In this document: one piece after another, positions 3,149 to 29,606 of the stretch
Layout: the number at the start of each line of letters is the position of its first letter
Numbering within the stretch: the stretch's first letter is position 1
Virus record (IMG/VR): IMGVR_UViG_3300023296_000332
Span: 1 to 64,000 of that record
Source: a virus
DNA: 64,000 nucleotides
Strand: one strand, 5' to 3'
Notes under the pieces: generated by a model
The model's database searches: none
What the model saw: the letters and a program-made list of their open reading frames with translations, nothing else
What the model was told of the DNA's origin: nothing
Program-made: the position numbers and the translations under genes

Positions 3149-3280
3149 TACTACGGAGTAAAAGGTGACGTTTATACAACAGAGCCTCAAATAATCACTG
3201 GTACGCTTTGTGCCAACCTGAAACACGACAAGAACAACATTTTGGACAAGATTAGAGGAATTTATGACAAACAAAATTAG
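3149..3280 (+). pseudogene. Orphan coding-like fragment without a start codon
   Basis: The frame one base behind the 2949 gene is open from 3092 to a TAG at 3278-3280 but has no ATG, GTG or TTG. From 3149 it reads YYGVKGDVYTTEPQIITGTL and on to LDKIRGIYDKQN, with codon choice like the neighbouring genes. It could be the tail of the 65-aa gene separated by a one-base indel, a frameshifted extension, or chance. No classic slippery heptamer was seen. Confidence 0.3.
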
Positions 3281-8832: not shown

Positions 8833-10968
8833 ATGACAGAAAACGAAACTACTTGGAGTGAAAACTATGGCTCCACTGCGAAGGCTATGGCTATTCACGA
8901 AGAGAACAATGGTTCCTACACTGGAGTCTACAAAGGCTCAAGTGCTGCGTCACACAGGAGTTACGCTGCTCCACAACAACAGAATATAAGCACGAAGCCA
9001 TCTTACGGAAGGTCGGATTACGAAACCTTTCGCCCAGACTCGGCTGTCTCTCAAGATAAGAGACGCATGATTAGAGATTGTGTGAACGCATACAAGAACG
9101 TCGGATTGATTCGGAATGTAATTGATTTGATGGGCGATTTCGCTTGTCAGGGTGTCTCTTTGGTACACCGAGACAAAAGTGCCGAAAGCTTCTTCCAGCA
9201 ATGGTTCAAGCAAGTAAATGGAAAAGAGAGATCAGAACGTTTTCTTAATAACCTCTACAGATCGGGCCAAGTCGTAGTTTACGAATCTTATGCAGACGTA
9301 GACGAGGGGCTTAGGAAGTACATGAAGGCCCTAGCTGGGGACATCAAGGTCAAGAACCCAACAAAAGAAGACAGAATTCCTTTTGCTTATACGTTTTTTA
9401 ACCCTCTAAGTTTGGATGTCAAGGCTGACGGCGATCTATATCTGAACGTTAGTGGCAAGGCTAAGATTGGTGGGCACTTCGGAACCTTTGACTCTCAGAG
9501 CCAGAGAACGGCCAACATGCCCAAGTCTGTATTCGACAAGCTGCCCAAAGGTATGCGAGATCAGATCAATAAGAACAAGGGCCAAGTCAGATTAGAAAAT
9601 GGCAGGCTAAGCGTATTCCACTACAAGAAAGACGACTGGGAACAATGGGCTGACCCAATGATCCACGCTATCATTGATGATGTTGGTATGCTAGAGAAGA
9701 TGAAACTGGCAGACATGTCGGCCCTTGATGGTGCTATTTCTAACATTAGACTGTGGACACTTGGAGACTTTGAGCACAAAATCCTTCCTACTAAGGAGGG
9801 TATTGATAGACTGCGTAACATCCTGGCAAATAACCAGGGCGGAGGCACTATGGAGCTTGTGTGGGGTCCAGAGTTAAAGTTTACCGAATCTAATACAGAA
9901 GTCCACAAGTTCTTGGGCTCAGAGAAGTACAATTCAGTATGGAACTCTATCTATGCTGGACTAGGAGTGCCCCCTACTCTTACTGGTATGTCTGGCAATG
10001 GTGGAGGCTTTACTAACAACTTTATTTCTCTTAAAACGCTAGTAGAACGACTACAATATGGGCGAGACTTGTTAATCAAGTTCTGGCAAGCACAAGTAGA
10101 GAAAGTTCGTAAGGCGATGGGCTTTAGATATGCCCCAGAGGTTGTATTTGACCAAATGAGCCTTTCTGACGAGGCTGCTGAGAAGAATCTTCTTATTCAA
10201 TTAGCTGACCGCAATATCATCAGTGACGAAACTCTATTAGAAAGATTCAAAGAGACCCCTACTGTTGAAAGAGTACGTCTAAAGAGGGAAATTGCAGCAA
10301 GAGAGGGTGACGGTATGCCTGATAAGGCTGGTCCATTCCACAATGCTCGACATGTTCAAGAGCTTGAAAAGATGGGTAAACAGAAGGAATTCGACGATGA
10401 CACCATGAAGAAAACAACCAAGGAAGAAAAGGAGAAGCTCAAGTTTCAGTATGAGAATGAGCCCAAGCCTCCTGCTCCTGCGGCTGGTCCTGGTGGAAGC
10501 AAAAAGCCCGGTGGTGCTAAGAAACCAACACCCAAGGGCAATGGAAAGCCAAACGGCAGACCTAAGAATTCTAAGGATAGTGCCCCTAGGAAACAAAGAC
10601 AGGCTAAGCCTAAGTCTAAGCCGGGTGTGGCAGAGCTAATCCGTTGGTCAGAAGAGGCTTGGGACAATAGTTCCGAAGTTTTGACTAAAGCATTCTTGGG
10701 TGCAAACGAAAAGAAAACAGTACGACAATTAACCAAGGCTCAAGTTAAGCAACTTGAGAACCTAAAGGTTGAAGTATTCACAAATCTGGAGCCTATGGAG
10801 CCAGTAGGAAAGAAAGAGGTTTATGCCGTTATTTCTGGGGGTAAACGAGTTCCTCATGATCTAGCAGAGGCCTTTCAGGAGCACGAAATTTCAATAGACA
10901 CTATGCCCGTAGAAGCATTCCGTAGGAGTGTTATTGGTCACTATGTTGAATCATTTTGGCTCAGCTAA
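8833..10968 (+). CDS. Portal protein, 711 aa
   Basis: Dodecameric head-vertex channel through which DNA passes. Family features include the QDKRRMIRDCVNAYKNVGLIRNVIDLMGDFA segment (about 75-105), the LEKMKLADMSALDGAISNIRLWTLG helix-strand region (about 285-311), and a GLGVPPTLTGMSGNGG stretch that precedes the long tunnel helix in many portals. Residues 304-363 are the part duplicated at the front of the dehydratase at 3264. The C-terminus carries a Lys/Pro/Gly-rich, probably disordered extension (about 540-600) followed by a separate small domain (about 605-711), longer than usual. GGTGGC precedes ATG 8833. Confidence 0.87.
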   Translation: MTENETTWSENYGSTAKAMAIHEENNGSYTGVYKGSSAASHRSYAAPQQQNISTKPSYGRSDYETFRPDSAVSQDKRRMIRDCVNAYKNVGLIRNVIDLMGDFACQGVSLVHRDKSAESFFQQWFKQVNGKERSERFLNNLYRSGQVVVYESYADVDEGLRKYMKALAGDIKVKNPTKEDRIPFAYTFFNPLSLDVKADGDLYLNVSGKAKIGGHFGTFDSQSQRTANMPKSVFDKLPKGMRDQINKNKGQVRLENGRLSVFHYKKDDWEQWADPMIHAIIDDVGMLEKMKLADMSALDGAISNIRLWTLGDFEHKILPTKEGIDRLRNILANNQGGGTMELVWGPELKFTESNTEVHKFLGSEKYNSVWNSIYAGLGVPPTLTGMSGNGGGFTNNFISLKTLVERLQYGRDLLIKFWQAQVEKVRKAMGFRYAPEVVFDQMSLSDEAAEKNLLIQLADRNIISDETLLERFKETPTVERVRLKREIAAREGDGMPDKAGPFHNARHVQELEKMGKQKEFDDDTMKKTTKEEKEKLKFQYENEPKPPAPAAGPGGSKKPGGAKKPTPKGNGKPNGRPKNSKDSAPRKQRQAKPKSKPGVAELIRWSEEAWDNSSEVLTKAFLGANEKKTVRQLTKAQVKQLENLKVEVFTNLEPMEPVGKKEVYAVISGGKRVPHDLAEAFQEHEISIDTMPVEAFRRSVIGHYVESFWLS

Positions 10969-13010: not shown

Positions 13011-14018
13011 ATGGCTAAATTTGAAAAACCTGATGCAGCAACTATTAAGTTGCTTGCTGACACAGGTCACGAAGACTATAACGTTGCTGTTGCTGCTCAA
13101 AGAGAGTTCGCTAAGGCATTTGAAACCCCACTAAGAAAGGTTATCCTAAGTGGTGACATTCTTGATGGTATTTATTCACCTATTCCATTGGAGAAGGGAG
13201 ACGTTGCGGAATACCCAACTGACCTTATTGCTCCTGGCATGGAAGGCGAGCATGTGGCTTACACCAGTCCTGCTCACGGTAGAATTCCTGAGAAGACCCT
13301 GGAAAGTGATTACATCGCGATCCCAACCTATCACATTGCATCGTCAATTGACTGGTTGCTAAAGATCTCTCAAGAAGCTAAGTGGGACGTTACCCAACGT
13401 GCTATGGAAATCTTCAAGAACGGTTTCGTTAAGAAGATGAATGACGACGGTTGGCACACGTTGCTAGCTGCTGGCGTTGACCGTAACATTTTGGTTTACG
13501 ACGCTGACGCTACCGAAGGTATGTTCACCAAGAGATTAGTTTCTCTAATGCAAACCACAATGCGTAGAAACGCTGGTGGTAACAGTGCATCGGGTGGACG
13601 TGGTCGTTTGACCGACCTTTACGTTTCGCCAGAAGCTCTGGAAGACGTAAGAAACTGGGGAATGGACCAAGTTGACGAAGTAACACGTAGAGAAATCTAC
13701 ATTGCTTCTGAGAATGGTGCCCCTATCACTCGAATCTTCGGCGTGAACATTCACGACCTGGACGAGTTGGGCGAAGGTCAAGAGTACCAAGAGTACTACC
13801 ACAACCAGCTTGGTGGCAAGGTACAAGAGGATGACAGAGAGTTGGTTATTGGTCTTGACAGAAGCACCAACGACTCGTTTGTTATGCCTATGAAGGGCGA
13901 AGTACAAGTCTTTGAAGATCCTACGCTTCACAGATCGTACAGAGTCGGTTACTACGGTTGGGTTGACGCCGGTTTCGGGGTATTGGATAATCGCCGGATC
14001 ATTCTCGGCAGTTTCTAA
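13011..14018 (+). CDS. Major capsid protein (HK97-like), 335 aa
   Basis: Shell subunit. Size, position after the scaffold and decoration genes, and sequence pattern fit an HK97-fold capsid protein: an N-terminal arm, the spine helix region around KWDVTQRAMEIFKNGFVKKM, an RRNAGGNSASGGRGRLTDLYVSPEALEDVR stretch as in the A-domain, and a C-terminal VGYYGWVDAGFGVLDNRRI strand. AGGAG lies 10 nt before ATG 13011; an ATG at 13004 is followed by a stop after four codons. A strong terminator follows directly, as for a highly expressed gene. No long N-terminal delta domain is present, in line with the separate scaffold. Confidence 0.88.
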   Translation: MAKFEKPDAATIKLLADTGHEDYNVAVAAQREFAKAFETPLRKVILSGDILDGIYSPIPLEKGDVAEYPTDLIAPGMEGEHVAYTSPAHGRIPEKTLESDYIAIPTYHIASSIDWLLKISQEAKWDVTQRAMEIFKNGFVKKMNDDGWHTLLAAGVDRNILVYDADATEGMFTKRLVSLMQTTMRRNAGGNSASGGRGRLTDLYVSPEALEDVRNWGMDQVDEVTRREIYIASENGAPITRIFGVNIHDLDELGEGQEYQEYYHNQLGGKVQEDDRELVIGLDRSTNDSFVMPMKGEVQVFEDPTLHRSYRVGYYGWVDAGFGVLDNRRIILGSF

Positions 14019-14121: not shown

Positions 14122-15636
14122 ATGTTATTAAAAGAAAAGACAAAAACTGAACTGGGAATAGATATTGACTCTCTTTCTCAAGGTTCCCACAAGAAGGTTT
14201 ACGCACAATGTGATTATTGTAAATCCGATTATCTTGTTCAATTTAAGAATAGAAACGGAAGTTACAAAAAATTCCCTAAAGATTGTTGTATAAAATGTAA
14301 GTTCAAAAAAAGAGAAGAAGTTTCATTAGCAACTCATGGTGTCAAGAACTCTGCACAAAGAGAGGATGTTAAAGAAAAACTTAGAACTTTCAATATCGAA
14401 GACTATATAGATCAAATAAGAGATTTAGCATCTAAAGGTTTCAGTTCTTATAAGATATCACAAAAGTTAAATATTCCTAGTACAAGTCTAGAAAGGTTTT
14501 TAGAATCTACAAAACTAGATTTTTCAGTAGTTAAAAACAATAGAGGTAGAACTACAAAAGCCGCTATGATAGATAAATATGGGTTAGAATATAAAAAAAT
14601 ACTTGCAGACAAGTTAAGAATAATGTCTAATAAGTTATATGCCGTTGATAATTACTTTCAATCTGAGGAAATTAAGGAAAAATCTAAACAAACACGAATA
14701 AATAACGGAAACGAATACAGTTTTGAAGGTATTAGTATAAAAGATATGTGTGACATTACTGGTTATTCTATAACTAGAATGAGAGATCTTATTAAAATGT
14801 ATGGACACGACGCTGCTATTAAAATGTCTCCGTTTCAAAGTTCTTTAGAGAGTGCGATTGAAGAGTTTATAATTAGCTTAGATCTTTCTTATGAGAAACA
14901 ATTTAAAGTAGAAAGTAAAAGTTGTGATTTTAAGGTTAACAATATACTCATAGAATGCGACGGGCTATATTGGCACACGGAAAAGAATCTAGAAATAAAT
15001 AGAAAAGTTGACGGACAAAGGTATCATTTTCAAAAAAGAGAACTTTATAAAAAACATGGATACCGGTCATATTTCTTTCGCTCAGACGAAATAGAAAACA
15101 AGCTCCCTATTGTTAAATCTATTATCATAAACGCCCTCAGCCTCAATTCCGTAAAGTTTTATGCTAGAAAGCTCACTTTTCAGGAACTCACCAATAAAGA
15201 AGGGTACGAATTCTGTCAAGAACATCATCTTATGGGCGGCCACAAGACTGTAAGTAAAACATTCGCCCTCATGAACGGTAATATCGCCCTAAGCGTCTTC
15301 CAGGTTAAAAGGCTTGGTAATGGAAAGGGTTACGACCTGTCCCGTTTCTGTACACTTCCAGAGACAACGATAGTGGGCGGATTTAGTAAGCTTCTATCTG
15401 GATTTGAAAAGATTTCCAAACCCAATCGTTTTCAGACCTTTATAGATCTTCGTTATGGTTCTGGAGACTATCTTGAAAAACTAGGGTTCTCCCAAGAGTC
15501 CTGCTCTCCCAGCTTTAACTGGACCAACGGCGTAGAAACCTTTCACAGGATGAAATTCCCTGCATCTACCGGTTATGATTACGATATGGTTAAGATATGG
15601 GACTGTGGACAACGCAAGATGGTTAAGAACTACTAG
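14122..15636 (+). CDS. Free-standing homing endonuclease, Vsr-like (EDxHD type), 504 aa
   Basis: N-terminal zinc-ribbon-like part (CDYCKSDY...CCIKCKF, about 32-67), then helix-turn-helix-like segments (ASKGFSSYKISQKLNIPSTS; ITGYSITRMRDLIKMYG). Residues 240-335 form a Vsr/PD-(D/E)xK-type nuclease core (SLESAIEEFI, CDFKVNNILIECDGLYWH, KRELYKKHGYRSYFFRSDEI), the pattern of I-Bth0305I-like enzymes. A C-terminal domain (about 345-504, RFQTFIDLRYGSGDYLEKLGF) is often found with phage homing nucleases. Such enzymes cut allelic DNA lacking the gene and spread it. The gene sits alone between two terminator-promoter pairs, directly after the capsid gene. Bases up to about 15100 are much more AT-rich than the last third. 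Confidence 0.82.
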   Translation: MLLKEKTKTELGIDIDSLSQGSHKKVYAQCDYCKSDYLVQFKNRNGSYKKFPKDCCIKCKFKKREEVSLATHGVKNSAQREDVKEKLRTFNIEDYIDQIRDLASKGFSSYKISQKLNIPSTSLERFLESTKLDFSVVKNNRGRTTKAAMIDKYGLEYKKILADKLRIMSNKLYAVDNYFQSEEIKEKSKQTRINNGNEYSFEGISIKDMCDITGYSITRMRDLIKMYGHDAAIKMSPFQSSLESAIEEFIISLDLSYEKQFKVESKSCDFKVNNILIECDGLYWHTEKNLEINRKVDGQRYHFQKRELYKKHGYRSYFFRSDEIENKLPIVKSIIINALSLNSVKFYARKLTFQELTNKEGYEFCQEHHLMGGHKTVSKTFALMNGNIALSVFQVKRLGNGKGYDLSRFCTLPETTIVGGFSKLLSGFEKISKPNRFQTFIDLRYGSGDYLEKLGFSQESCSPSFNWTNGVETFHRMKFPASTGYDYDMVKIWDCGQRKMVKNY

Positions 15637-16249: not shown

Positions 16250-19200
16250 ATGCCGATCAAAGACAAGAACGTACTAAGGGCAGAAATAGAAGAAAAAATA
16301 GAGGATAATGAACAGGGCCGAGTGTCTCCAGAAGATATTAGATCGGCCCTTCTTGACATTATCGACTCCAATCATGTGCTATCAGTAGACAAGAACCTTG
16401 TTGCTGCTAATCTATCGTCTATTGACGTTGGAAACACATATCTAGGAGAAGAGTCTGCCACAAAAAGAGGCGTAGAATACAACACTTCCGTGGGTTATTT
16501 TGCCCTTCGTGCAAACGATGGGGATCAAAACACCGCTGTGGGTGCTTATGCGTCTGCATGTAATATCTTCGGAAGTGGGAATACTTCTTTAGGTTATTCA
16601 GCCCTTGGTAGCAACTTTGACGGCAAGAACAATGTGGCCCTTGGCAAACACTCCTTGGGTAGAAGTAAGAACGGCAGCTTTAACGTTGGTATTGGCCACG
16701 GTGCTGGTTACTACATTGACGACAATGATAGCTACAAGTTTTACCTTGGCTCTCACGACATTGATGAATCTGGAATGTGTAATCATCCAGATGGCATCGA
16801 CGGTATGGCTCCGCTTCTTTATGGAGACCTTCTAAACGGCACTCTAGTCGTTGGCTCTGACGATATGCACGATCAGGGTGCCCTACAGGTTAATGGAAAC
16901 ATTACTCCCGTTAGCGATAGTGGAACAGACAACCTTGGCTCCTACGACTACCCATGGAACAAGGCATACGTCAAAGGAATTGACTCTAACGAGACTTTTA
17001 TTGAGTCATGGAGAGACTTTAATCCTCGACAAGCTTCTACTTTTAATCTAGGCTCAGAAGATAAGCCCTGGAATCACTTACATGTAGACAACTTGCACGT
17101 CAATAGCCTAGCTGACTTGACAAACGTTAAGTATGTTCACATTGAAGACTCTACATTCTACGACAAGCAGATCCATCTTGCTAGTAGCGGCGTAGACTCA
17201 AACAACAACACAATGCCCTATCTTACCGACGAAGGCGTTGATGGTGCTGGACTTGTAGTAAGAGCTAGTGGAACAGACTACCTAAGATCTTATTCTTGGA
17301 CTTACAAAGCCCCAGACCTTGACTGGGAATGTCCAGAAACAGAAAACGCATACTCCAGATCTGCATGGTTATCAAACATTAGTGTTGAAATCATGGATGG
17401 CAACCAATTGAAAACCCAAAGAGTGATGAGTTCTGACTCATTAGCTTTAGTTGGTGGTGGTTGTTACGGATTCTTTATTGATGAAAAGGTTGTACTAGGC
17501 ACCCAGGGCGACAAGAACGCCTTTGATAACGAATACTACAAGCCAGACTACATTAGCTATGCTACCGGAGACTACGCTAACTTTACAGTAAGTCGAGAGT
17601 CTGGCATCTTCATGGAAGACAACCTGCTTAGCCAATACGACGGCTCCAGCAGCCTCACAGGCTTCAAGAGAAGATATTTCGACACAGATGACTCATTCTT
17701 TGTCCTGTCGTCTCACGCAGGCACTCAGACGCCCACAAGTGAATTTGTTTCGATGCGAGACAGATCGGCTTTTGGTTTTTCTGACCAACCGAATTTTAGA
17801 CCAGAGACCCTTGTTAACACGAAGAGTAGTGGCGATGCCATCTTTAGACATACTGGTGAGGTATCGTCTAGGATTCAACTTTCTAGTCCAGACAATTTGT
17901 TTACAAATGGTGCAGAGATGTACTATTCAAATGAAAATTCTAGGTTTGGAATTCTGACTAAGGAAGGTGATACGGTTCGCCATGCTCTGACTGTTAGCGG
18001 GGATCTCATTGGTATCAACCAAGACCCATTTGCTACACTTACGGTGGGCAAAGATAGAAATGCAAATGCAGCTATCTCGTTACAAGAGGGAAGTGGGCAA
18101 TTAGAAGATAAAGAAGGATGGGGCACTATCTATGTTAGGAAGATCTCTAACCCAGACACGCCAAACTCTGTCTTCTACAGAAATGAAAACGGCGACGAGT
18201 TTGACTTGCTTATGTCCTCTGGGGACAAAATGGCTCCAGACAGCGTCTACTACGATGATTACGGTAATACGTTTGTAGGTTATCAGTCTATTGAAGATAG
18301 ATTAAATCCTACGAGCCAGGGCTACCTTTCTAACAATACAACACTTGGGCACAGAGCCCTAGCAGACCTTTATTACGGCAGCAACAATATCGCTATCGGC
18401 CCCAAGGCTGGAGAGGGTATCGTTTACGGCCAGAACAACATCTTTATCGGCTCAGAAGCGGGCCTAGTTGAAGACGACCTTGGTCAAACGTTCTATAACC
18501 AATTTAGACTTGGACACAACGACGAAGACTTACTTATGTCTGGGCAGTTACCAACGCCTCAAGATAGGGGTTATGTTTATGTCCAAAGTGACCTTGGTAT
18601 TGTCAGTAAAGACAACTTAGATAGATTTAGAATGGGCCAGCTTGGTGGAGATACGATCTTCACAAAAGAAAGCTCTGGAAACATCTACTTTAGATACTTT
18701 GACGATTTCGCTAGCGACCCCTTGGTTATTAGCGAATCGGGCATCAAGACTCCAAGAATCGAATTTAACGACGGCACTTACTTCGACACCTCTTATGGTG
18801 TTAAGTTTGAAGCTGGCAATGCTATCTCTTTCACTCCAGAAAGCGGAACAGACCGTAGAATTATTGATGTAGACTTTGATAAACTAGATCCAAGCGACGA
18901 AATGTATCAAGATACATACGTTATGGTTCAGTCTTCTGGAGAAAACTACAAAAGTTCTATCCTTAACATTGCTAGGTTTGTCAATCCAGATAATCCTGAG
19001 ATGTTCTTTGACTGTGGTGGCGGATATAACATCGTCGTATCAAGAAACTCAGACGTAGATAACTCTAAGAACTGCAACAACCTCGTTGGCGGCTTTAAGG
19101 GCGGTCACAATATCGAAGGCTTTACAAACAGTTTGATTCTAGGTTCTAAGGCTGGCGAACAAGCCACCATGCAGAACCCAGACCTTTCTATCGACATCGC

Positions 19201-21259
19201 CGCAGTGTTCTTGGGATACAACGCAGGTAGACAATCACACAATGCTGATAATTCTATCTTTATTGGCCCTTCTGCTGGACAACATTCAGAGTATTGCGAC
19301 AACTCTATCTTCATTGGAAACTCTGCGGGACAATCTTCGTTCTCTTCTAAGTCTATTGCTATGGGTGACAACACCTTAGTAGACGTAGACGGAGAGAACA
19401 ACCTAGAGATTGTAGCAGACCACAGACCTAACAATAGGCTTATCAATGGAGAGATGAGCAATAAGTTTAACGTACAAGGGGTTATCGCTGGAGACCACTG
19501 CTCAGGCAGAGTTTCTGTTGGTGGTGGAGCTAGAGTATTCCCTAGTGCTGTATTAGAAGTTGCTGCTGGATTTGGAGATAACGAAACACCCCTACAACAA
19601 TGGTTTAATGGGCAGGGCAACCTTGTCGCATATATGGACCAACAAGGAAACTTGGTGTTGAAAGGCTCCGTCGCACAAAACAACTCTTACATGGGTGATA
19701 CCAACCTGTCACCAGCGGCACAGCTTAACCCAGACATCTGTGGAAATACCAACAGCACTGGCAACTCTTCGGACCCAGGAAACGGAGGCGGAACTGGAAA
19801 CAACGATAATCCTAGTACTGGATATTCAATTTCAGCTTCATCTTCAAGTGTTACTACTGGAGAGTCTGTAACGATGGTTGTTACTAGATTTGGAGGAACG
19901 CTAGGCCCTATGGTGTTAAGTCTTAGCTCTAGTGATACTTCTAAGGCAACAGTGCCCTCGTCTTTAACTATTCCAGACGGCGTTAGCAGTTCTGTGTTTA
20001 ATGTATTGACCAAGAACTCTGGAAATGTAAGCATTTCAACGATACACCAAACGCTTGGGTCAAAAGTTATTCCTATTGTGATTAGCAGTGTTGTTTCAAC
20101 ATCAAGCTTTACCTTTGTTCCAAACTCAAGCGTAATTTCTGTTGGAAGCTCAATGTATATCTATGGCTCAAGGAGCGGTGGAGACATTAGCCAACCAGAA
20201 ACGCTGTCTATTAGTTACTCAGGAAGATCTTCTGGACCTTCTACGGTAACCTTTGCTGCAAATCAATCTCAAACATCATTCTTGATAGAGGGAACGTCGG
20301 CTGGACTTGCGAACATAACGGTTGGAACAACACCAGTGCAGTTCACAGTTGAGTCAGTAAACAACGCACCATATTTTAGTGTTAATCCAAGCATGACACC
20401 TGGAGACGGCCCAACTGGAACTACGTTCACAGGAAATGACGGAAACATCGAAAACGGAGGCCTTCAATCTAGGTCTTGGTTATTAAATGGATCTTCTATT
20501 GGAACTGGTTTAAGCGTCACTGTAGGCCAACCTGGAACACTTGTGTACTCTGTTACTGCTGTAAATCCTAGTAGCGGACAAACCGTTACTGCGAACAGCA
20601 ATGGTTCTGTGGTATACGACATCGTTGACAACACTCCTTACTTCTTATCAAACCCAACAATATCCCCATCTAATGGCACAACAGCCACAAACTTTGAAGG
20701 ATCAGAAAGCGTTGGTAATGGATTTGTTCAGTCTCGATCTTGGAGATTGAATAGTTCAGAGATTGGAAGTGGTGTTAACGTAGTTTCAGCTAACCCTGGA
20801 AATCTAACGTATACAGTTACGATTGTAAACAACCAAGGAGAAACAGTTACGGCTACTAGTAGCGTAGCGACGGTTGTGGTACAGTTAGACCCAGTGACGT
20901 TAACAATTGAATCTACTAAGCCTGCATTTGACTACGAAGACGACAGAGATATCATAGTGACTAGATCTGGTGGAGATATTACCCAGCCTTTGTTTGTAAC
21001 ACTTACCGTTACAAGCAACGACGGACACGGAAACGTAGGGGTGATGATTCCTGCAAACCAAACACAGGTAATAGGAACTGTTCAAAAATTACCGACTTGG
21101 CATCAAGACAAAGACTATGGTGTAGTAACCCTTGTCGGAACGACCCCTGGTGGATCGGCAACGTCGAACAGTCTTGAAGTTAGATTTGAGCCAAAGTATT
21201 GGTCTATTGAAAACGGACAACCAGAAACGGAAAGAACCTACTTAAAGAGGGAATGGTAA
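16250..21259 (+). CDS. Large spike/fibre: beta-roll repeats plus Ig- and Calx-beta-like domains, 1669 aa
   Basis: Residues 1-45 contain a fibre N-terminal motif (PEDIRSALLDIIDS) also seen at 29612. Repeats of the YadA/Hep-Hag head type (NTSVGYFAL, NTAVGAYAS, NTSLGYSAL, NNVALGKHS) occur at about 75-160, again near 690-740 (NNTTLGHRA, NNIAIGPKA, NNIFIGSEA), and about 940-1055 (NSIFIGPSA, NSIFIGNSA), suggesting trimeric left-handed beta-rolls. A Ser/Gly/Asn linker (about 1155-1185) leads to Calx-beta-like modules (VTMVVTRFGG, DIIVTRSGGD) and two tandem Ig-like repeats (QSRSWLLNGSSIGTG and QSRSWRLNSSEIGSG). It is likely a receptor- or polysaccharide-binding appendage on the virion. AGAGGT precedes ATG 16250. 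Confidence 0.85.
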   Translation: MPIKDKNVLRAEIEEKIEDNEQGRVSPEDIRSALLDIIDSNHVLSVDKNLVAANLSSIDVGNTYLGEESATKRGVEYNTSVGYFALRANDGDQNTAVGAYASACNIFGSGNTSLGYSALGSNFDGKNNVALGKHSLGRSKNGSFNVGIGHGAGYYIDDNDSYKFYLGSHDIDESGMCNHPDGIDGMAPLLYGDLLNGTLVVGSDDMHDQGALQVNGNITPVSDSGTDNLGSYDYPWNKAYVKGIDSNETFIESWRDFNPRQASTFNLGSEDKPWNHLHVDNLHVNSLADLTNVKYVHIEDSTFYDKQIHLASSGVDSNNNTMPYLTDEGVDGAGLVVRASGTDYLRSYSWTYKAPDLDWECPETENAYSRSAWLSNISVEIMDGNQLKTQRVMSSDSLALVGGGCYGFFIDEKVVLGTQGDKNAFDNEYYKPDYISYATGDYANFTVSRESGIFMEDNLLSQYDGSSSLTGFKRRYFDTDDSFFVLSSHAGTQTPTSEFVSMRDRSAFGFSDQPNFRPETLVNTKSSGDAIFRHTGEVSSRIQLSSPDNLFTNGAEMYYSNENSRFGILTKEGDTVRHALTVSGDLIGINQDPFATLTVGKDRNANAAISLQEGSGQLEDKEGWGTIYVRKISNPDTPNSVFYRNENGDEFDLLMSSGDKMAPDSVYYDDYGNTFVGYQSIEDRLNPTSQGYLSNNTTLGHRALADLYYGSNNIAIGPKAGEGIVYGQNNIFIGSEAGLVEDDLGQTFYNQFRLGHNDEDLLMSGQLPTPQDRGYVYVQSDLGIVSKDNLDRFRMGQLGGDTIFTKESSGNIYFRYFDDFASDPLVISESGIKTPRIEFNDGTYFDTSYGVKFEAGNAISFTPESGTDRRIIDVDFDKLDPSDEMYQDTYVMVQSSGENYKSSILNIARFVNPDNPEMFFDCGGGYNIVVSRNSDVDNSKNCNNLVGGFKGGHNIEGFTNSLILGSKAGEQATMQNPDLSIDIAAVFLGYNAGRQSHNADNSIFIGPSAGQHSEYCDNSIFIGNSAGQSSFSSKSIAMGDNTLVDVDGENNLEIVADHRPNNRLINGEMSNKFNVQGVIAGDHCSGRVSVGGGARVFPSAVLEVAAGFGDNETPLQQWFNGQGNLVAYMDQQGNLVLKGSVAQNNSYMGDTNLSPAAQLNPDICGNTNSTGNSSDPGNGGGTGNNDNPSTGYSISASSSSVTTGESVTMVVTRFGGTLGPMVLSLSSSDTSKATVPSSLTIPDGVSSSVFNVLTKNSGNVSISTIHQTLGSKVIPIVISSVVSTSSFTFVPNSSVISVGSSMYIYGSRSGGDISQPETLSISYSGRSSGPSTVTFAANQSQTSFLIEGTSAGLANITVGTTPVQFTVESVNNAPYFSVNPSMTPGDGPTGTTFTGNDGNIENGGLQSRSWLLNGSSIGTGLSVTVGQPGTLVYSVTAVNPSSGQTVTANSNGSVVYDIVDNTPYFLSNPTISPSNGTTATNFEGSESVGNGFVQSRSWRLNSSEIGSGVNVVSANPGNLTYTVTIVNNQGETVTATSSVATVVVQLDPVTLTIESTKPAFDYEDDRDIIVTRSGGDITQPLFVTLTVTSNDGHGNVGVMIPANQTQVIGTVQKLPTWHQDKDYGVVTLVGTTPGGSATSNSLEVRFEPKYWSIENGQPETERTYLKREW

Positions 21260-22266: not shown

Positions 22267-22951
22267 GAAAGAGCTTATTGTCTCTAGGTACTCAGAAAAT
22301 GTTGAGTGGCTTTATGAAGTAGACTCTTCTGTTAATTCGATAGTTCTATACAACAAGGGCGAAGAGTTAAAACCATTTGATGACAAAAGGGTCAAAATCG
22401 TAAAGCTAGAAAACGTAGGAAGAGAAGCACACACCTACATACACCACTTTCTAAAACACAGAGAGAATCTGGCAGACACAACGATTGTTTGCCAAGGAGA
22501 CCCATTCGATCATTCTCTTGACTTCTTAGATAGGTTAAAAGTAGATTACGATCAACTTACATCTCTAACACATAGATACAAGTCAGACTGGCCACTCCCA
22601 CATGTGGTTGCTAAAGACAAGATCTCAACCTATAAGGGCTTTGAGATTAGAATGGGAAACATGGATTACTTTGGACATAGAGACCAAAAGACAACCAGAA
22701 AATGGTTTGAACAGACTTGGAAGAAAATATTTGAAAACCCGTGCCCCGTTGGTTACTTCTACGGATACGCAGCTACATGGGCGATCCCAAGGGATTTAAT
22801 TAGATTCAGAACAGAAAAGTTCTGGTCGCACTACTACGGATTGCTCTCTAAACAGTTTGCCATGGAGGCCTACATACTTTCAACAGACGCCTGGGCATTT
22901 GAAGCTCTTTGGAAAGCAATCTTTACACCTTCCTACAGGACAATACTCTAA
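22256..22951 (+). CDS. DUF3431-type protein, glycosyltransferase-like, 231 aa
   Basis: Resembles the DUF3431 family: ELIVSRYSENVEWLYEV at the N-terminus, IVLYNKGEE, ENVGREAHTYIHHFL, and the characteristic TIVCQGDPFDHSLDFL. Members are thought to be glycosyltransferase-like, though activity is not established. It overlaps the upstream gene by 11 nt, has GAGGTG 5 nt before the ATG, and is joined by TAATG to UDP-galactopyranose mutase, which fits a shared role in sugar transfer. Other possibility: an uncharacterised enzyme of capsule or lipopolysaccharide modification. Confidence 0.65.
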   Translation: MNYKKELIVSRYSENVEWLYEVDSSVNSIVLYNKGEELKPFDDKRVKIVKLENVGREAHTYIHHFLKHRENLADTTIVCQGDPFDHSLDFLDRLKVDYDQLTSLTHRYKSDWPLPHVVAKDKISTYKGFEIRMGNMDYFGHRDQKTTRKWFEQTWKKIFENPCPVGYFYGYAATWAIPRDLIRFRTEKFWSHYYGLLSKQFAMEAYILSTDAWAFEALWKAIFTPSYRTIL

Positions 22952-24027
22952 TGTACGACTATTTAATCGTCGGGGCCGGACTATTTGGGGCAACTTTTGC
23001 ACAGATAAAGGCAGAAGAAGGGAAAAAGATATTACTCGTAGACAAGCGTGAGCATATTGCGGGCAACTGCCATACGCCAGAAGTAAGTGGGATTAGGGTT
23101 CATCAGTACGGCCCTCATATCTTTAACACAAATTCCGACAAGATTTGGAGCTATGTCAACAGATTCACAAAGTTCAACAACTACGTGAATAGGACTAAGG
23201 CCAGTTACGGAGGTGTTTTATACTCTCTGCCAATCAATCTGATGACAATGCAACAAGTCTGGGGCGTCACAACCCCAAGAGAAGCACAGATGAAGCTGAA
23301 AGATGTGGTCATCCCCAACGAGAACCCTAGAAACTTTGAAGAAGCGGCACTCGCAACGGTTGGGAAAGAGCTTTATGAAATGTTCTTTTATGGCTATACA
23401 GCCAAACAGTGGGGCGTAGAACCCAGGGAGGTTCCTGCCAATATCTTTGGTAGACTTCCAGTGAGGTTGACATACGATGATAATTACTTCGTAAAAACTC
23501 ACCAAGGTATCCCAACAAGGGGGTATACTAATATGGTGGCTAATATGATTGACCACCCTAACATTGAGATCAAGCTAAATTGCGAGTTCTCAAAAGGCAT
23601 GATGCGGATGGCAAAGCAAACTCTCTATACTGGTTCTTTAGATAGCTACTTTGATTACAAGTTTGGCCCCCTGGACTACAGATCTTTAAGATTTGAGTGG
23701 ATCTACGGCAAAGGAGACATCCAAGGCAACGCCATAGTAAACTACACAGAAAAACACGTACATCACACAAGACAGATGGAGCACAAACATTTTTACATGC
23801 AAGAAAGCCCACTCACTGTTCTTAGTAGAGAGTTTTCTCAGAAATGGGAACCTGGGAAAGAAAGATACTACCCCATCAACACCCAGAAAAACAACAAGAC
23901 GCATAGGCAGTATAAAAACTTAGCGGACCAAGAAGAGGGTCTAATATACGGGGGCAGGCTTGCCTCCTATAAATACTGGAATATGGATCAAACAATAGGG
24001 GCCGCAATGTCTCTATCTAAAAAATAA
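22951..24027 (+). CDS. glf: UDP-galactopyranose mutase, 358 aa
   Basis: FAD enzyme converting UDP-galactopyranose to UDP-galactofuranose. The N-terminus YLIVGAGLFGATFAQ is the dinucleotide-binding GxGxxG motif, followed by VDKREHIAGNCH. Family signatures are HQYGPHIFNTNS, the KQWGVEPREVPANIFGRLPVR block, DDNYFVKTHQGIPTRGYT and a C-terminal GRLASYKYWNMDQ FAD-contact region. Length is normal for the family. ATG 22951 is chosen because the protein begins at the nucleotide-binding strand there and it forms TAATG with the upstream gene; an earlier ATG at 22909 would add 14 residues. It supplies UDP-Galf, probably to the neighbouring transferase-like protein (inference). Confidence 0.95.
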   Translation: MYDYLIVGAGLFGATFAQIKAEEGKKILLVDKREHIAGNCHTPEVSGIRVHQYGPHIFNTNSDKIWSYVNRFTKFNNYVNRTKASYGGVLYSLPINLMTMQQVWGVTTPREAQMKLKDVVIPNENPRNFEEAALATVGKELYEMFFYGYTAKQWGVEPREVPANIFGRLPVRLTYDDNYFVKTHQGIPTRGYTNMVANMIDHPNIEIKLNCEFSKGMMRMAKQTLYTGSLDSYFDYKFGPLDYRSLRFEWIYGKGDIQGNAIVNYTEKHVHHTRQMEHKHFYMQESPLTVLSREFSQKWEPGKERYYPINTQKNNKTHRQYKNLADQEEGLIYGGRLASYKYWNMDQTIGAAMSLSKK

Positions 24028-24054: not shown

Positions 24055-24057
24055 ATA

Positions 24058-24225
24058 ATGCCAATCGTTAAAACAATAACTAGAGAACTCACAAAAAACA
24101 TCGTCAACTATTTATCTCCAATAGATCAAGACAATACTCCACATAATTTTAGATTTCTAGTAGACAATTCTGGAATATTCGTAGTAGACAGAAATGGCAA
24201 CAAGATCAGTATGAGAGAACAATAG
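24058..24225 (+). CDS. Small fibre-type hypothetical protein, 55 aa
   Basis: Product begins MPIVKTITRELTKNIVNYLS and ends in a FRFLVDNSGIFVVDRNGNKI strand pattern like short phage adhesin pieces. The ATG follows the promoter-like hexamer by 3 nt, so the mRNA may be leaderless; no other in-frame ATG exists before codon 52. Its stop is one base before the next ATG. Real expression is unproven. Confidence 0.5.
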   Translation: MPIVKTITRELTKNIVNYLSPIDQDNTPHNFRFLVDNSGIFVVDRNGNKISMREQ

Positions 24226-24226
24226 A

Positions 24227-24511
24227 ATGAAAAAAATAAAAATAGAACAGTCTGGTCCTTCTCTCCCTGTCTTGGTTGGAAACGGAGGAAGTTCAGAATG
24301 GGTTTTAGCTGTTACCGGAGGCGTCGAACAGTCAACTAATCTTAAATTAGAAGCTTCTGTAAATAATGAAGACTGGTTTTCAGCAACTAGCGACAGCGGT
24401 GACGTAATTTTCACTAAGCCTAGTGCGGTCTTGGTTTCTTCTGGCTTGTACTACAGAGTCAACGTGGGGGCCTATAGCTCGCCAATTTCTCTACAAATCA
24501 AACCAAACTAA
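24227..24511 (+). CDS. Small Ig-like appendage protein, 94 aa
   Basis: Beta-sandwich-like pattern: SEWVLAVTGGVEQSTNLKLE, ASVNNEDWFSATSDSGDVIF, LVSSGLYYRVNVGAYSSPI, ending in a strand that closes the domain. No named family recognised. Located in the fibre locus, two bases after the preceding stop, with only a weak AGAGAA upstream. Likely a small virion appendage or host-binding protein. Confidence 0.6.
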   Translation: MKKIKIEQSGPSLPVLVGNGGSSEWVLAVTGGVEQSTNLKLEASVNNEDWFSATSDSGDVIFTKPSAVLVSSGLYYRVNVGAYSSPISLQIKPN

Positions 24512-24521
24512 GGAGACATAA

Positions 24522-24656
24522 ATGACAAACGTATATCTCAACAACATGGATGACACTTGGAACGATTCCAATGTAAATTATGTTAGCGTTAAAATGGATA
24601 TTGATGATCAAAATTCAGGCCCTTCTAGTAAAATATTGGATTGCAAAGCATTTTAG
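24522..24656 (+). pseudogene. Truncated fibre-base gene (N-terminal remnant), 44 aa
   Basis: AAGGAG 6 nt upstream, then a product matching the N-terminus of the gene at 28226: TWNDSNVNYVSVKMDIDDQN against LWDDIEKPYDAIKMDVDDQN. This is the widespread phage motif 'W-N-D...A-I-K-x-x-V-x-D-x-x-S'. It stops after 44 residues, where the paralogue continues for 133. It may still be translated, but looks like a remnant left by recombination. Confidence 0.6.
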
Positions 24657-24886
24657 ACGAAGAAGTAATACCACAAGAGACATGGGAAACTTGGGGAACA
24701 CATGGAGAATCTCACAAACCTCAAAAGGTTGGAGACAAGTGGTATCTTTCTAGCAACGTTGGAATATCTGGCACACCTCTGAAAGCTAGTCAGTGGGCAC
24801 CACTTATGTTAACTGGACAAGTCAAGCCAATTTCTGTAAAAGGCTACAAAACTATTGTCTTAGAAAATTCTATTGAAGAAGTTTAA
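24641..24886 (+). pseudogene. Remnant of 27149-type gene (C-terminal part)
   Basis: A frame open from 24632, with TTG 24641 as the only nearby start. It reads IPQETWETWG, GESHKP, DKWYLSSNVG and PLKASQWA, matching the C-terminal 80 residues of the protein at 27149 (IPQETWETWG, GESHKP, GKWYRSNNVG, PLDASKWA). The N-terminal half is missing. At the DNA level CAAGAGACATGGGAAAC is identical at 24674-24690 and 27458-27474. Confidence 0.6.
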
Positions 24887-24966
24887 TGAAGGACAGCCCG
24901 TCTGCAATTACACTAGACAAATTAAAATTAGTAAAAATAAGGAAATCATTTCTGAAAACTGATTAG
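24886..24966 (+). pseudogene. Remnant of 28827-type gene, 26 aa
   Basis: ATG in a TAATG junction. The product MKDSPSAITLDKLKLVKI resembles an internal segment of the protein at 28827 (MKDGPSSITVDKSDLIKT). It ends after 26 codons. Too short to function like the full gene. Confidence 0.5.
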
Positions 24967-24970
24967 AATG

Positions 24971-24979
24971 GTGTATAAT
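24971..24979 (+). promoter_or_regulatory. GTGTATAAT promoter-like element before LamG gene
   Basis: Exact nonamer with TATAAT at 24974-24979, 73 nt before ATG 25053, a longer leader than at the other sites. Confidence 0.55.
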
Positions 24980-25052
24980 AAAATAGAAGAAAATTTCAAA
25001 CTAGCCTCCTAGCCTACTCCGACTCTCAAATCCGCCTAATCCGGTTTCCAAC

Positions 25053-27152
25053 ATGCCAGCCAACCCTTACCCGAAATTCAGAGTCGCAGATCCAGTTCGA
25101 TTGGGTAGTGAAGTTTCGATTGAAGATAGTGATGATGCCGAAGCAGTTCGGAGCAAGCTCGGGACAAATAGCTCAGCTGAAACGCAAGCACTCATTGACA
25201 ACCTTGATGGTGCCACGCAAACCTTCCAAGAACTAGCGGCAACACTACCTACCGTCAAACCCACATCACCCTACACATTTTGGCGTGACTCGCCTTACAT
25301 TTTAGAGACACTGCCAGAATTAGATGCTATTGAGTTGAATCAATACGCACTTGACGGTGGCTTGGCGTACCAGCCCGGTACGACCTACCTACGAAGCCTC
25401 GAATCGCACGGGGATTGGCGTGAGCCCAGACAAGGACGAGGTTACCTATTCGATGGAACGGACGACAAGCTAGTTGGTGGGTCGGTCACGGGCACTACGA
25501 TCATCACGAAAATCGGGACATCATCGCTCACAGTAGACACAGGCGAAATCACGGCAACGGCAGGAACGCTCAATTATCTGGCACTGAGCAATGGAAGTAT
25601 CTATAGGTGCAACGAAGAATCGGGCACAATTGCTTATGATTCCAGCGGCAACGGAAATGATCTGACGCTGACGAACATCACGCAATCAACATTCCATGCG
25701 ACTGATACAAGCCTTGTGAACCCTGCCAATGAAGTTGGGTACAGTTATTTCAACAAACTGCTTTCTGATCAAGACGTTTGGGTTTTTGGGCCAAACATCG
25801 GAATATCACAAACGACAATTGAATTTGACGGAAGCCCCGCTTACGAAGCTGCTAGGTATGATTTCTCATCAATTGCAGAAATCGGAGTTTCGTACTCGAT
25901 TAGTTTTGATATAGATTCATTGTCAAGCGAGATTCAGGTTTTCCTAGGGGTTAACTCGTTAACCTCATCACAGATTGGAACCTTCACTGAGCCGGGGGCA
26001 TACTCATTTGTTAAAGAATTAACAGAAGGGAACAACCTCCTATTCAGGATGCTTGGGGCTAGCAATACAGCGTCTATCCAAAACATTCGCTTAGCTAAGA
26101 TTGACTCTCCACCCATCATCCCTCGCGATGAATCAGACCCATCAAACGACGTACTCGGCAACGATCTTCAGTACACAAGCAAAGCCCCAAGGCCGATTCA
26201 ATCGAGTGTGCCTTGCTTGACTCTGGACGGGGTGGATGACTATGTCACCCACGGAAAACTTGGAAAAACATCAGGCACCTACTCAAAGGTAAAACAAGAA
26301 ATTCGATTCTTTGCGAATTCCCTTGCCACGTACTTTCTTTCATCAAAATCGTTGGGAAACTCAAACTCGGAAAGCCTGGAAATTCACATCAAAGCGGATG
26401 GTGCTATTAGGTTCATTCCAAAAGCGGGGGTGTTTTTTGACTCACCCACCGGAACGGTCTTAGCGTCCACATGGCATTTGGCAGTTTTTGAGTGGGACGC
26501 TTCAATAGGCACAGCAACGCTTGCGTTTAATGGAAATGCAGTTTCTTTATCACAATCTGGTGATGGTGACGCATCTACAGCTGGCGATTTCGTTGATGTT
26601 GATTATCGGATTGGAGCGAGAGGTGAGGACTTACATTTCATTCCAGGCCGATTCGCCTATGCAATCTTGACGGTAGATGATGAAGTTCTAGTGAACTCAA
26701 CATTCCAAGAAGGTTCCGGCCCAATAGTCTACGACACCAGCGGCAACGGTAACCACGGCACACTGATCAACGCCAACCTGGCCAACGCATGGGCGAACAC
26801 GACTGATGTGGTTGAGGATCATTGCATCAATCACGGTGGTCGCATGGATGGCACTGCATTCGTCCCCGGCATCCCAGGCAACGACAACGCAGCCAACGGA
26901 CTGACAAAGACACTCGCAGCAGGCAAGTTCGGCAACCCGCATAGCCGCCTAAACTTCAATCCGTTCACCTTGCCAGAATTGACGGCGATCAATACTGAGA
27001 CGGCTTACGAAGTAACAGACGCACGTCAGACTGTCGCCCCTGCTGATACCAAGTTTGTTCAATCAAAATCAGATGGTGATGACAAATTCTTTTCTTCGGA
27101 CTCACCGTTAACCGGTGACGACTTACTACACGCAAACGGGTACACAACATGA
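25053..27152 (+). CDS. LamG/concanavalin-like adhesin, 699 aa
   Basis: Two lectin-like jelly-roll regions can be seen. The first is around residues 128-232 (GYLFDGTDDKLVGG...IAYDSSGNGNDLTL). The second is around 385-600 (LTLDGVDDYVTHG, a WHLAVFEWDAS strand, GPIVYDTSGNGNHGTLIN). The phrases 'DGxDDYV' and 'YDxSGNGNxGTL' mark LamG-like sugar-binding domains. N-terminal residues 1-60 may anchor it to the virion (AEAVRSKLGTNSSAETQALIDNL). The ATG has no Shine-Dalgarno, which is unusual here. The protein reminds me of adhesins or prophage proteins of Verrucomicrobia/Planctomycetes, a recollection that would need a search. Likely carbohydrate-binding fibre. Confidence 0.7.
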   Translation: MPANPYPKFRVADPVRLGSEVSIEDSDDAEAVRSKLGTNSSAETQALIDNLDGATQTFQELAATLPTVKPTSPYTFWRDSPYILETLPELDAIELNQYALDGGLAYQPGTTYLRSLESHGDWREPRQGRGYLFDGTDDKLVGGSVTGTTIITKIGTSSLTVDTGEITATAGTLNYLALSNGSIYRCNEESGTIAYDSSGNGNDLTLTNITQSTFHATDTSLVNPANEVGYSYFNKLLSDQDVWVFGPNIGISQTTIEFDGSPAYEAARYDFSSIAEIGVSYSISFDIDSLSSEIQVFLGVNSLTSSQIGTFTEPGAYSFVKELTEGNNLLFRMLGASNTASIQNIRLAKIDSPPIIPRDESDPSNDVLGNDLQYTSKAPRPIQSSVPCLTLDGVDDYVTHGKLGKTSGTYSKVKQEIRFFANSLATYFLSSKSLGNSNSESLEIHIKADGAIRFIPKAGVFFDSPTGTVLASTWHLAVFEWDASIGTATLAFNGNAVSLSQSGDGDASTAGDFVDVDYRIGARGEDLHFIPGRFAYAILTVDDEVLVNSTFQEGSGPIVYDTSGNGNHGTLINANLANAWANTTDVVEDHCINHGGRMDGTAFVPGIPGNDNAANGLTKTLAAGKFGNPHSRLNFNPFTLPELTAINTETAYEVTDARQTVAPADTKFVQSKSDGDDKFFSSDSPLTGDDLLHANGYTT

Positions 27153-27676
27153 TCACTATTTTCGGACCTAAATCACTTACCCTGCCGTCTGCACTTGGCG
27201 GTGACGATGCAATCTACGGACTGGTTGTTGTGTGTGCTACACGAGGCTTGACTGTTAATGAGAAGCAAGGATCGGACACGGTTTCCGTCCACGGAATCAA
27301 AGACACTGGCTTGGTGACCCTCCAAATTGTGCAATTACTACTGAGCAAGGGAGCCGATGTTCTTGGCTACCCCGTGTTCTTTGAAATCGACGATGTGACG
27401 GCGTTGTGCCCGTTCTCGCCTGATGATGCAGTCGATGCAGAGGGTGATCCCATTCCCCAAGAGACATGGGAAACATGGGGTGTGGTCGGTGAATCCCACA
27501 AGCCAAGACTGATCGACGGCAAGTGGTACCGATCCAACAACGTCGGTGCTTCAGGTGAACCTCTGGACGCAAGCAAGTGGGCAAGCTGGATCGGCAGCCC
27601 ACCTGCTGGGATCACTGTGCTGTCGGTTGACGACTACAAAGCACTGGCGGATTCTCAAGAACTGGAAACAGCATGA
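27149..27676 (+). CDS. Hypothetical fibre-locus protein, 175 aa
   Basis: N-terminal half with alternating hydrophobic strands (AIYGLVVVCATRGLTVNEKQG, DVLGYPVFFEIDDVTALCP), C-terminal half with PIPQETWETWG and a KWYRSNNVGASGEPLDASKWA segment that also survives as a remnant at 24641. No family recognised. ATGA overlap with the LamG gene and the next gene suggests a coupled trio, perhaps a fibre, its connector and its tip or chaperone. Confidence 0.6.
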   Translation: MITIFGPKSLTLPSALGGDDAIYGLVVVCATRGLTVNEKQGSDTVSVHGIKDTGLVTLQIVQLLLSKGADVLGYPVFFEIDDVTALCPFSPDDAVDAEGDPIPQETWETWGVVGESHKPRLIDGKWYRSNNVGASGEPLDASKWASWIGSPPAGITVLSVDDYKALADSQELETA

Positions 27677-28224
27677 CAACTTACACCGACTACTACAGGC
27701 ACACCAACAGCACCGACACGCTTTACGCAGTGCCTCTTACAGTAGATGCTTGGTCGATTACTGGGTTGGTCGATGGCGACGATTCACAGGTTGCTGGCTT
27801 GTTTGTGTTCGAGGGGCTGGACGATGAAACAGCTTATGAGATCCGTATTAGAGCGGGAGCGGGCCCGCTAGAGACTGACGTGTCAATTGCTGCGTTTTCC
27901 GCATTAGCCAATGTGCCTACCGCAGCTGAAATCAGTTTCAGTATCGCGAACGATGTTGTCAATGACGACAACGACTGGGATATTGCAAAGCAATCTTTAG
28001 TGGGCCAGATATGGGAGAACACTGACCGAACACTTACCTCAATTGCCGACAGTACTGGCATGACGACGCTGTTGACGCGGATCACCGGTCTGTTGCAGAC
28101 CAAGGCTCAGGCCGATACAGACCAAGCAGAGGTCATTTCCGCGGTAGACAATGTGCCTACTACGGAACAAGTTGAAGAAATCGCAACATATTCAAAAATA
28201 GCCGCTAAAAATACCCAGGAATAA
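27673..28224 (+). CDS. Hypothetical fibre-associated protein, 183 aa
   Basis: N-terminal beta-rich half (LYAVPLTVDAWSITGLVDGDD, AYEIRIRAGAG) followed by a helical C-terminal half with coiled-coil character (LLTRITGLLQTKAQADTDQAEVISAVDNV). This could be a trimerising stalk. Not recognised. It ends 1 nt before the start of the next gene; its codon use still matches the cassette rather than the following genes. Confidence 0.55.
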   Translation: MTTYTDYYRHTNSTDTLYAVPLTVDAWSITGLVDGDDSQVAGLFVFEGLDDETAYEIRIRAGAGPLETDVSIAAFSALANVPTAAEISFSIANDVVNDDNDWDIAKQSLVGQIWENTDRTLTSIADSTGMTTLLTRITGLLQTKAQADTDQAEVISAVDNVPTTEQVEEIATYSKIAAKNTQE

Positions 28225-28225
28225 A

Positions 28226-28627
28226 ATGGCCTATATATATAATATGACTGATCTTTGGGACGATATTGAAAAACCTTATGACGCTATAAAGATGGACGTA
28301 GACGATCAAAACTCTTCAATTGATAGCAACCTCATAGATTTAAAAATCAACAGCTCTACAAAGTTTTCAATTGACAAAACAGGGGCTCTTCTAGTGGGCA
28401 ATGTTGAAAAAACATTAGAAAATCTAAATATATCGACCTATGTCTTTCTGGAAGATTTAAAAACTGAAGACTATGTTTATTATGGTGGAGAGACCTCTTC
28501 TGGGAAATGGAAAGTGAATAGGTTTGACGCAAGCGTAAACAAAACTGTAGCTAATAAAGACAATAATCCCACCTATGAAACGTTAACCCTAGCTTGGATA
28601 GACCTTGAAACTCTTGTGTATTCATGA
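28226..28627 (+). CDS. Fibre-base protein, 133 aa
   Basis: N-terminal 50 residues carry the common phage appendage motif: LWDDIEKPYDAIKMDVDDQN, then SNLIDLKINSSTKFSIDKTG, which matches 'W-N-D...A-I-K-x-x-V-x-D...S-x-L-L-D-L-x-x-x-x-x-x-x-F-x-V-x-K-x-G' in many marine phages. The remainder has a strand-rich YVYYGGETSSGKWKVNRFD domain. Intact paralogue of the remnant at 24522. AGGA precedes the ATG. Probably a short virion fibre or adaptor. Confidence 0.7.
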   Translation: MAYIYNMTDLWDDIEKPYDAIKMDVDDQNSSIDSNLIDLKINSSTKFSIDKTGALLVGNVEKTLENLNISTYVFLEDLKTEDYVYYGGETSSGKWKVNRFDASVNKTVANKDNNPTYETLTLAWIDLETLVYS

Positions 28628-28827
28628 CGCCAACAGCTCCAATTATAAAGAGAAGAATCGCCCAATTTGGAGACTGGGATAGCGTTCCAGTAGGAACGTT
28701 TGTAAAAAAGATGGAAGATGGCTCCGTAGGGTATGAAGAAGTGTATACTAAGCTAGAGGTAGATCAGAAAATTTTAGATGCTATCCAGAGTTTTATAGAC
28801 GAAGGCGATATTATTAGGCTTAGATAA
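28624..28827 (+). CDS. Small fibre-type protein, 67 aa
   Basis: Short acidic protein with AQFGDWDSVPVGTFVKKMEDG and a C-terminal helix (KLEVDQKILDAIQSFIDEGD). Resembles oligomerisation ends of phage fibre subunits, but no family is recognised. ATGA overlap upstream and TAATG downstream, so it is translated as part of a coupled series. Confidence 0.6.
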   Translation: MTPTAPIIKRRIAQFGDWDSVPVGTFVKKMEDGSVGYEEVYTKLEVDQKILDAIQSFIDEGDIIRLR

Positions 28828-29606
28828 TGAACATAAATTTACCGTTAGCTACAGGTTTTCAACCTGACCTCTTAGGTGTAATAGGTTACACCATTCTCAA
28901 TACTAATGGTACTACTTATCTAGCTAGGACAACAAGCGGTATAACAGAGCAAAATGAAACCTATGCCGCTTCTGTAGACATAGATGCGAAGGATTTGCCC
29001 CTAATAGTAAAATGGGACGACTCTAGCTCTCAAGACGTGTCTTACGCAGGAATAGAAGGGGACGAGGCAATAGTCGGGTCTAGCTACCCAGTAATTCCGT
29101 CCTCTTCTGCAAATCTTTCAGGTTGGAAACAAATGGTTGTTTTAACCTTGAGGCACCTAACTGGAGACATTGATCCGTCTGAGTATGAATATTCAGATGA
29201 GAGGTTTTTACAGTTATTCTTAGTAGCCTCCAGTCTAGTCTCTTTTGACATAGATTTCTCTGAAGATTATGAGATACAGATATCAGCACAAGAAATTATC
29301 CCAGACCCAGAAAAAGATAAGGATTTTATAACACTAGGCTGCTTGAAGGCTGCGTGTATATTGCTTACAAGTGAGGGCAAGTCTGCTTCTGGTTGTAAAA
29401 TCTCAATGAAGGACGGCCCATCCAGCATTACAGTGGATAAATCTGATCTTATAAAGACTTTAAAAGACATGAGCAAAAGCCTGTGTGACAAATACGAAGA
29501 AGCTGCCTTTCTTTTTAAGCAAGAGGGCACTTTAGGAGTAGCTATCTTTGGCCCTCATGGAATTGGCATTGTCGACCAACACGATACACGAAGAAACTTT
29601 AGGTAA
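28827..29606 (+). CDS. Putative neck/connector protein with fibre-like N-terminus, 259 aa
   Basis: The N-terminal domain (VIGYTILNTNGTTYLARTTSGITEQN; then LPLIVKWDD) is a small beta domain frequent in phage neck and fibre proteins. The following helical part, DERFLQLFLVASSLVSFDIDFSEDYEIQIS with PDPEKDKDFITLGCLKAACILL, has the layout of head-tail adaptor proteins. A C-terminal segment (residues about 190-259) includes the MKDGPSSITVDKSDLIKT stretch duplicated in the remnant at 24886. Role as connector is inferred from pattern and location, between fibre and neck genes. Confidence 0.55.
   Translation: MNINLPLATGFQPDLLGVIGYTILNTNGTTYLARTTSGITEQNETYAASVDIDAKDLPLIVKWDDSSSQDVSYAGIEGDEAIVGSSYPVIPSSSANLSGWKQMVVLTLRHLTGDIDPSEYEYSDERFLQLFLVASSLVSFDIDFSEDYEIQISAQEIIPDPEKDKDFITLGCLKAACILLTSEGKSASGCKISMKDGPSSITVDKSDLIKTLKDMSKSLCDKYEEAAFLFKQEGTLGVAIFGPHGIGIVDQHDTRRNFR

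Follow-up and report, generated by a model that had tools for sequence, protein, structure and literature searches.

What is the 445-bp stretch at positions 24522-24966 of this phage genome, in which parts of three different genes appear to follow one another without any of them being complete? The window analysed comprises 64,000 nucleotides and is part of a 68,938-base virus record. A first-pass annotation of it had described this stretch as a compressed scar that suggested repeated unequal recombination, with a repeated 17-mer as a possible crossover site. We consider it highly probable that this stretch has no function and is what remains of a former occupant of a slot in which host-recognition genes are exchanged, left to decay at the slot's left edge. 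The slot is situated in the late structural region, between the gene for a large virion protein (16250-21259) and a connector-like gene (28827).

Three gene fragments, A, B and C, lie head to tail in the 445 bp (Table 1). As had been proposed, they correspond to the N-terminus of the 28226 gene, the C-terminal part of the 27149 gene and an internal piece of the 28827 gene, and all three matches exceeded those obtained with shuffled sequences. Fragment A shares 17 of 36 aligned residues with 28226-28627 (score 103; maximum of 1,000 shuffles, 54), fragment B shares 36 of 70 residues with 27149-27676 (score 186; shuffle maximum 53), and fragment C shares 13 of 25 with residues 194-218 of 28827-29606 (score 64; maximum of 5,000 shuffles, 47). 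A and B were also recovered by whole-genome searches (E 4.5e-9 and, for B against the 27149 gene, 9.6e-21), and both were among the strongest matches between separate genes in a translated self-comparison of the window. Each downstream gene was the clear best partner of its fragment, among the neighbouring ORFs tested for A and B and among all window ORFs for C, for which the next-best ORF scored 34. The reading frame of A departs from the homology at the A/B joint, giving an ORF of 44 aa; B has no ATG, and its ORF opens at a TTG on the joint; C begins at 24886 and overlaps the stop codon of B, its similarity tailing off by about 24945. The fragments are thus shortened homologues of genes that are intact downstream, as expected of a deletion scar or pseudogene, and the label of a compressed scar was well chosen for what we regard as the mark of deletions in a locus that has been rearranged repeatedly. 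The order A-B-C differs from the order of the downstream genes, and therefore one duplication followed by deletions does not explain the scar.

Table 1. Positions of the scar fragments, the cassette and neighbouring features in the window
Feature	Position	Strand	Remarks
Large virion structural gene	16250-21259	+	In relatives, core gene that bounds the variable interval on the left
Small ORF (MPIVKTITREL...)	24055-24225	+	Upstream neighbour; truncated near codon 22 in L003
94-aa ORF	24227-24511	+	Between upstream gene and scar; missing in L003
Fragment A	24522 to about 24644	+	N-terminal ~40 codons of 28226-type gene; start codon and Shine-Dalgarno-like AAGGAG
Fragment B	about 24641 to 24885	+	C-terminal ~80 codons of 27149-type gene; 81-aa ORF
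Fragment C	24886 to about 24966	+	Internal ~25 codons of 28827-type (connector) gene
Promoter-like motif GTGTATAATA	24971-24980	+	In both alleles; about 75 bp before cassette start
Leader	24981-25052	+	Left border; allele identity breaks at about 25015, after CTAGCCTCCTAGCC
Cassette gene 1	25053-27152	+	699 aa, without family match; L003 has an unrelated 320-aa gene instead
Cassette gene 2	27149-27676	+	Intact B-type gene, 175 aa
Cassette gene 3	27673-28224	+	Only last ~25 codons (NVPTTEQVEEIATYSKIAAKNTQE) common to L003
Right border	28144-28165	+	GTAGACAATGTGCCTACTACGG; NVPT motif; allele identity begins at GTAGRCAATGTGCCTAC (28144)
Intact A-type gene	28226-28627	+	
67-aa ORF	28624-28827	+	Between A-type gene and connector; overlap of a few bases with each
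Connector-like core structural gene (C-type)	28827-29606	+	Putative connector, by position; ends variable interval

Residue identity to the downstream genes is 47% for A, 51% for B and 52% for C, and DNA identity over the aligned codons is 56-57%. The differences at codon positions 1/2/3 number 17/10/20 in A, 24/23/44 in B and 10/7/15 in C, so that third positions account for 20/47, 44/91 and 15/32 of them, respectively. This excess indicates that the genes diverged as coding sequences, long before they were broken. By these identities and codon patterns, the fragments are remnants of old, diverged relatives, and none was copied recently from the downstream genes. The connector-like gene is only 36-44% identical between the window phage and other members of its group, which makes a relative within the group a plausible source of fragment C, although C scored better against the window's own connector-like gene (64) than against those of five relatives (31-34). 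An intact ancestral order upstream of the cassette was not found in any relative, and hence the order of the scar events is inferred.

A second allele is provided by a sister record of 175.8 kb (IMG/VR contig 3300023231_000004, here L003), which is 98.3% identical to the window up to 24120 and 98.8% identical from 28144 onward. Between these flanks, L003 shares only 24645-24783, the first 139 bp of fragment B (98.6%), and 24939-25043 (91%). The middle of the scar is thus common to both genomes, indicating that the scar predates their split. L003 lacks 24121-24644, and with it fragment A and the 94-aa ORF, as well as 24784-24938 (155 bp of the scar, including most of C), with 2 bp shared at the latter joint. 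Its small upstream gene is cut short and runs, out of frame, into a B-type remnant that is longer than that of the window (about 130 codons). Such different truncation and loss in a sister lineage is expected of a scar, and each lineage has deleted different parts of it since the split. L011, an independent assembly that comes from another sample, carries the L003 allele, with 8,830 bases identical to it. No second contig carrying fragment A up to the A/B joint was found in the collection, which may omit near-identical records, and the window allele with its A/B joint rests on one assembly. Relatives in which the small ORFs are intact, separate genes, which would have spoken against a scar, were sought and none was found.

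To the right of the scar, window positions 25044-28143 are fully replaced by 7739-9317 in L003, between flanks that are 98-99% identical; L011 shows this replacement up to the end of its contig. The L003 cassette encodes proteins of 320, 111 and 115 aa, which are unrelated in sequence to those of the window except for the last ~25 codons of the third. An 11-mer of the right border, AATGTGCCTAC, also occurs at 27910 inside cassette gene 3. Third-position GC is 0.47-0.53 in the window cassette and 0.44-0.60 in that of L003 versus 0.28-0.39 in the scar and its immediate neighbours, as expected for recent foreign imports. The motif GTGTATAATA that precedes the leader occurs 12 times in the window with at most one mismatch, always on the + strand, versus 3.3 copies expected, and as many were never seen in 100 shuffles. 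Most copies precede genes, and we therefore regard the motif as probably the phage's promoter; it lies just before genes at positions 529, 8780, 14072, 15705, 24046, 24971, 34879 and 45631. Elsewhere in the window, the ORF at 1342-1866 has a weak match to sigma factors.

None of the window's cassette genes matched a known family. Searches of 50,697 phage records returned nothing for the B-type gene, cassette gene 1 or the connector-like gene, and just one 27-residue match for gene 1 of L003. Two scans of bacterial and archaeal genomes gave no source of the B-type gene or of cassette gene 1. The B-type gene was not found in 45 relative records, a set without a positive control, and the A-type protein was not found in 17 relatives searched, while L003, searched alongside, did match. 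Structure models were too poor to use (mean pLDDT 41 for the B-type protein and 32 for part of cassette gene 1). A lectin-like reading of gene 1, prompted by the stretches LDGVDDYV and DTSGNGNHGTL, was confirmed neither by Pfam nor by comparison with the Laminin_G_3 protein of a relative. Receptor-binding or fibre-associated proteins are the probable products of the cassette, given its position and the lectin-like and BppU-like genes that relatives carry there.

The wider phage group shows the setting of this slot. The gene order in relatives is decoration-like, capsid, 15755-type, 16250-type, variable interval, connector-like (28827-type), 29612-type and 30550-type, and the connector-like gene was found in 17 of the 45 relatives searched. 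Capsid and connector genes are 3.9-8.8 kb apart in eight relatives versus 14.8 kb in the window. The variable interval is nearly empty in three relatives (L027, L040 and L041) and filled in three others (L026, L029 and L031) with fibre, lectin-like or other genes, among them a Laminin_G_3 protein in L029 (E 1.9e-10) and a BppU_N-like protein in L026 (a weak match, E 1.3e-4, just under the cut-off). The interval is thus a non-syntenic island between conserved structural genes, and its contents differ even between close relatives, as the replacement in L003 and L011 demonstrates; both are features of the host recognition clusters discussed below.

Several other observations concern the neighbourhood. 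The capsid-like gene at 13011-14018, which marks an abundant group of aquatic viruses, has at least 600 relatives in IMG/VR, with ~70% identity among those kept, and no PHROG family match. Between it and the 15755 gene lies a homing-endonuclease-like ORF (14122-15636; phrog_3339, E 3.7e-43), which no more than 2 of the loci compared from relatives were seen to contain. In relatives, as seen in L026 (17160-18272 and 20796-20969), N-terminal parts of the 30550 type flank the connector-like gene on both sides, which is another sign of duplicated fibre modules in the locus. The first ~60 residues (3264-3460) of a GDP-mannose dehydratase ORF at 3264-4622 are a diverged internal piece of the portal gene at 8833-10968 (44% identity, E 1e-12); this piece is common to the sister genomes and absent from the dehydratase of the six relatives inspected. 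This lineage may tend to keep pieces of core structural genes next to its sugar or recognition cargo. The window begins with a tandem array of a 17-bp unit (1-134).

Could the scar have been built from the genes that now lie downstream of it, duplicated upstream and then compressed by crossovers at the 17-mer or similar repeats? The homology of the fragments to these genes would fit such an origin, as would the 17-mer CAAGAGACATGGGAAAC, which is indeed present at both 24674 and 27458; exact repeats of at least 16 bases that are not in tandem number only three in the 64 kb, this one included. However, the low identities and the preponderance of third-position differences would make any duplication ancient, and the 17-mer is part of the coding sequence of a conserved motif, PQETWET, and is present once in L003. 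The joints fall at 24120, ~24645, ~24784/24938, ~25015 and 28144; none of them coincides with the 17-mer, no allele is joined at 24674/27458, and the borders of the swap are at about 25015 and 28144. We therefore consider this origin unlikely and do not retain the 17-mer as a crossover site. What stands of the proposed repeated unequal recombination is a rearranged locus, with other deletion joints and another cassette in L003, but not crossing-over between local copies, whose DNA is only ~57% identical.

It is still less probable that the small ORFs are functional genes, encoding for example short assembly or decoy proteins, that share no more than a likeness with portions of larger genes: the start signal of A is good and B and C are joined by an overlapping stop and start, but B has neither an ATG nor a clear ribosome site, and in L003 fragment A and most of C are lacking and B is truncated at another point and not in the reading frame of the upstream start. 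We attach equally little probability to a swap driven by a mobile or programmed switching system, whether an invertible segment, a retroelement, a homing element or a store of silent cassettes. The sharp borders, the constant leader and the constant C-terminal codons would suit such a system, and the homing-endonuclease ORF is present elsewhere in the window. However, no second cassette copy was found in the 175.8-kb sister record or in the window's own record, the inverted repeats near the cassette edges are only 71% complementary and form no strong pair at the borders, and none of the ORFs in the locus was recognised as a nuclease or integrase.

The reading of the 445 bp as leftovers of an earlier slot occupant builds on what the two alleles display directly at the sequence level, namely fragments that are diverged homologues of genes within the slot or directly behind it, a scar origin common to both, deletions peculiar to each lineage and cassettes that differ completely. 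We propose that diverged relatives would have brought old cassettes along with pieces of neighbouring genes, that recombination would have replaced the cassette by way of short stretches common to both partners, namely the leader at 25015 and the NVPT codons at 28144, and that illegitimate deletion at sites with a few shared bases would then have trimmed the leftovers; at the deletion joints, 2-7 bp are shared. The sister genome encodes a RecA-family recombinase, which makes homologous recombination at short, diverged stretches possible, and has no match to the RecT family. Because the promoter-like motif and the leader lie between the scar and the cassette, decay upstream need not prevent the expression of a new cassette. 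A more specific form of this proposal, which we hold to be rather improbable, is a dedicated cassette port, in which the constant promoter and leader on the left and the constant 24-codon C-terminal tail on the right would be fixed exchange sites at which three-gene recognition modules are repeatedly installed in this phage group, with the scar as a record of the waste. The locus captures, in two otherwise almost identical members of a widespread phage group, a swap of genes that probably serve host recognition, and it places the borders of this swap to within tens of bases. Old occupants of the slot leave readable fragments; from such scars one could infer which cassettes were present before and study whether exchanges always use the same borders.

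Phage mosaicism by relaxed or illegitimate recombination, in which small gene fragments are transferred more often than whole modules, has been described for temperate phages with Rad52-like recombinases (PMC3945230). The window resembles that case in the exchange between diverged phages and differs from it in the recombination genes of its sister genome. In the Alteromonas phages A5 and V22, a host-recognition module has been horizontally exchanged, and its fibre and chaperone were demonstrated experimentally (PMC10579305). Here, too, host-recognition genes appear to move between phages as a module, although that of the window has no recognisable family and a putative function. Of the systems described so far, the host recognition cluster (HRC) of marine myophages comes closest; it is a variable island in the structural region of pelagimyophages and cyanomyophages in which fibre genes stand with sugar or cell-wall genes (PMC7029224), and the present locus may be viewed as its analogue. 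Like the HRC, the island of the window lies between a large structural gene and a neck or connector gene and includes a sugar gene, a UDP-galactopyranose mutase (22909-24027). Unlike the phages with an HRC, the window phage belongs to a different group, with a capsid protein outside the PHROG families, and its island is much smaller. For the closest pair in the HRC study, gradual divergence was reported (PMC7029224); the borders of the window's island, unlike those of the HRC, are given by two alleles in near-identical genomes together with a scar of gene fragments.
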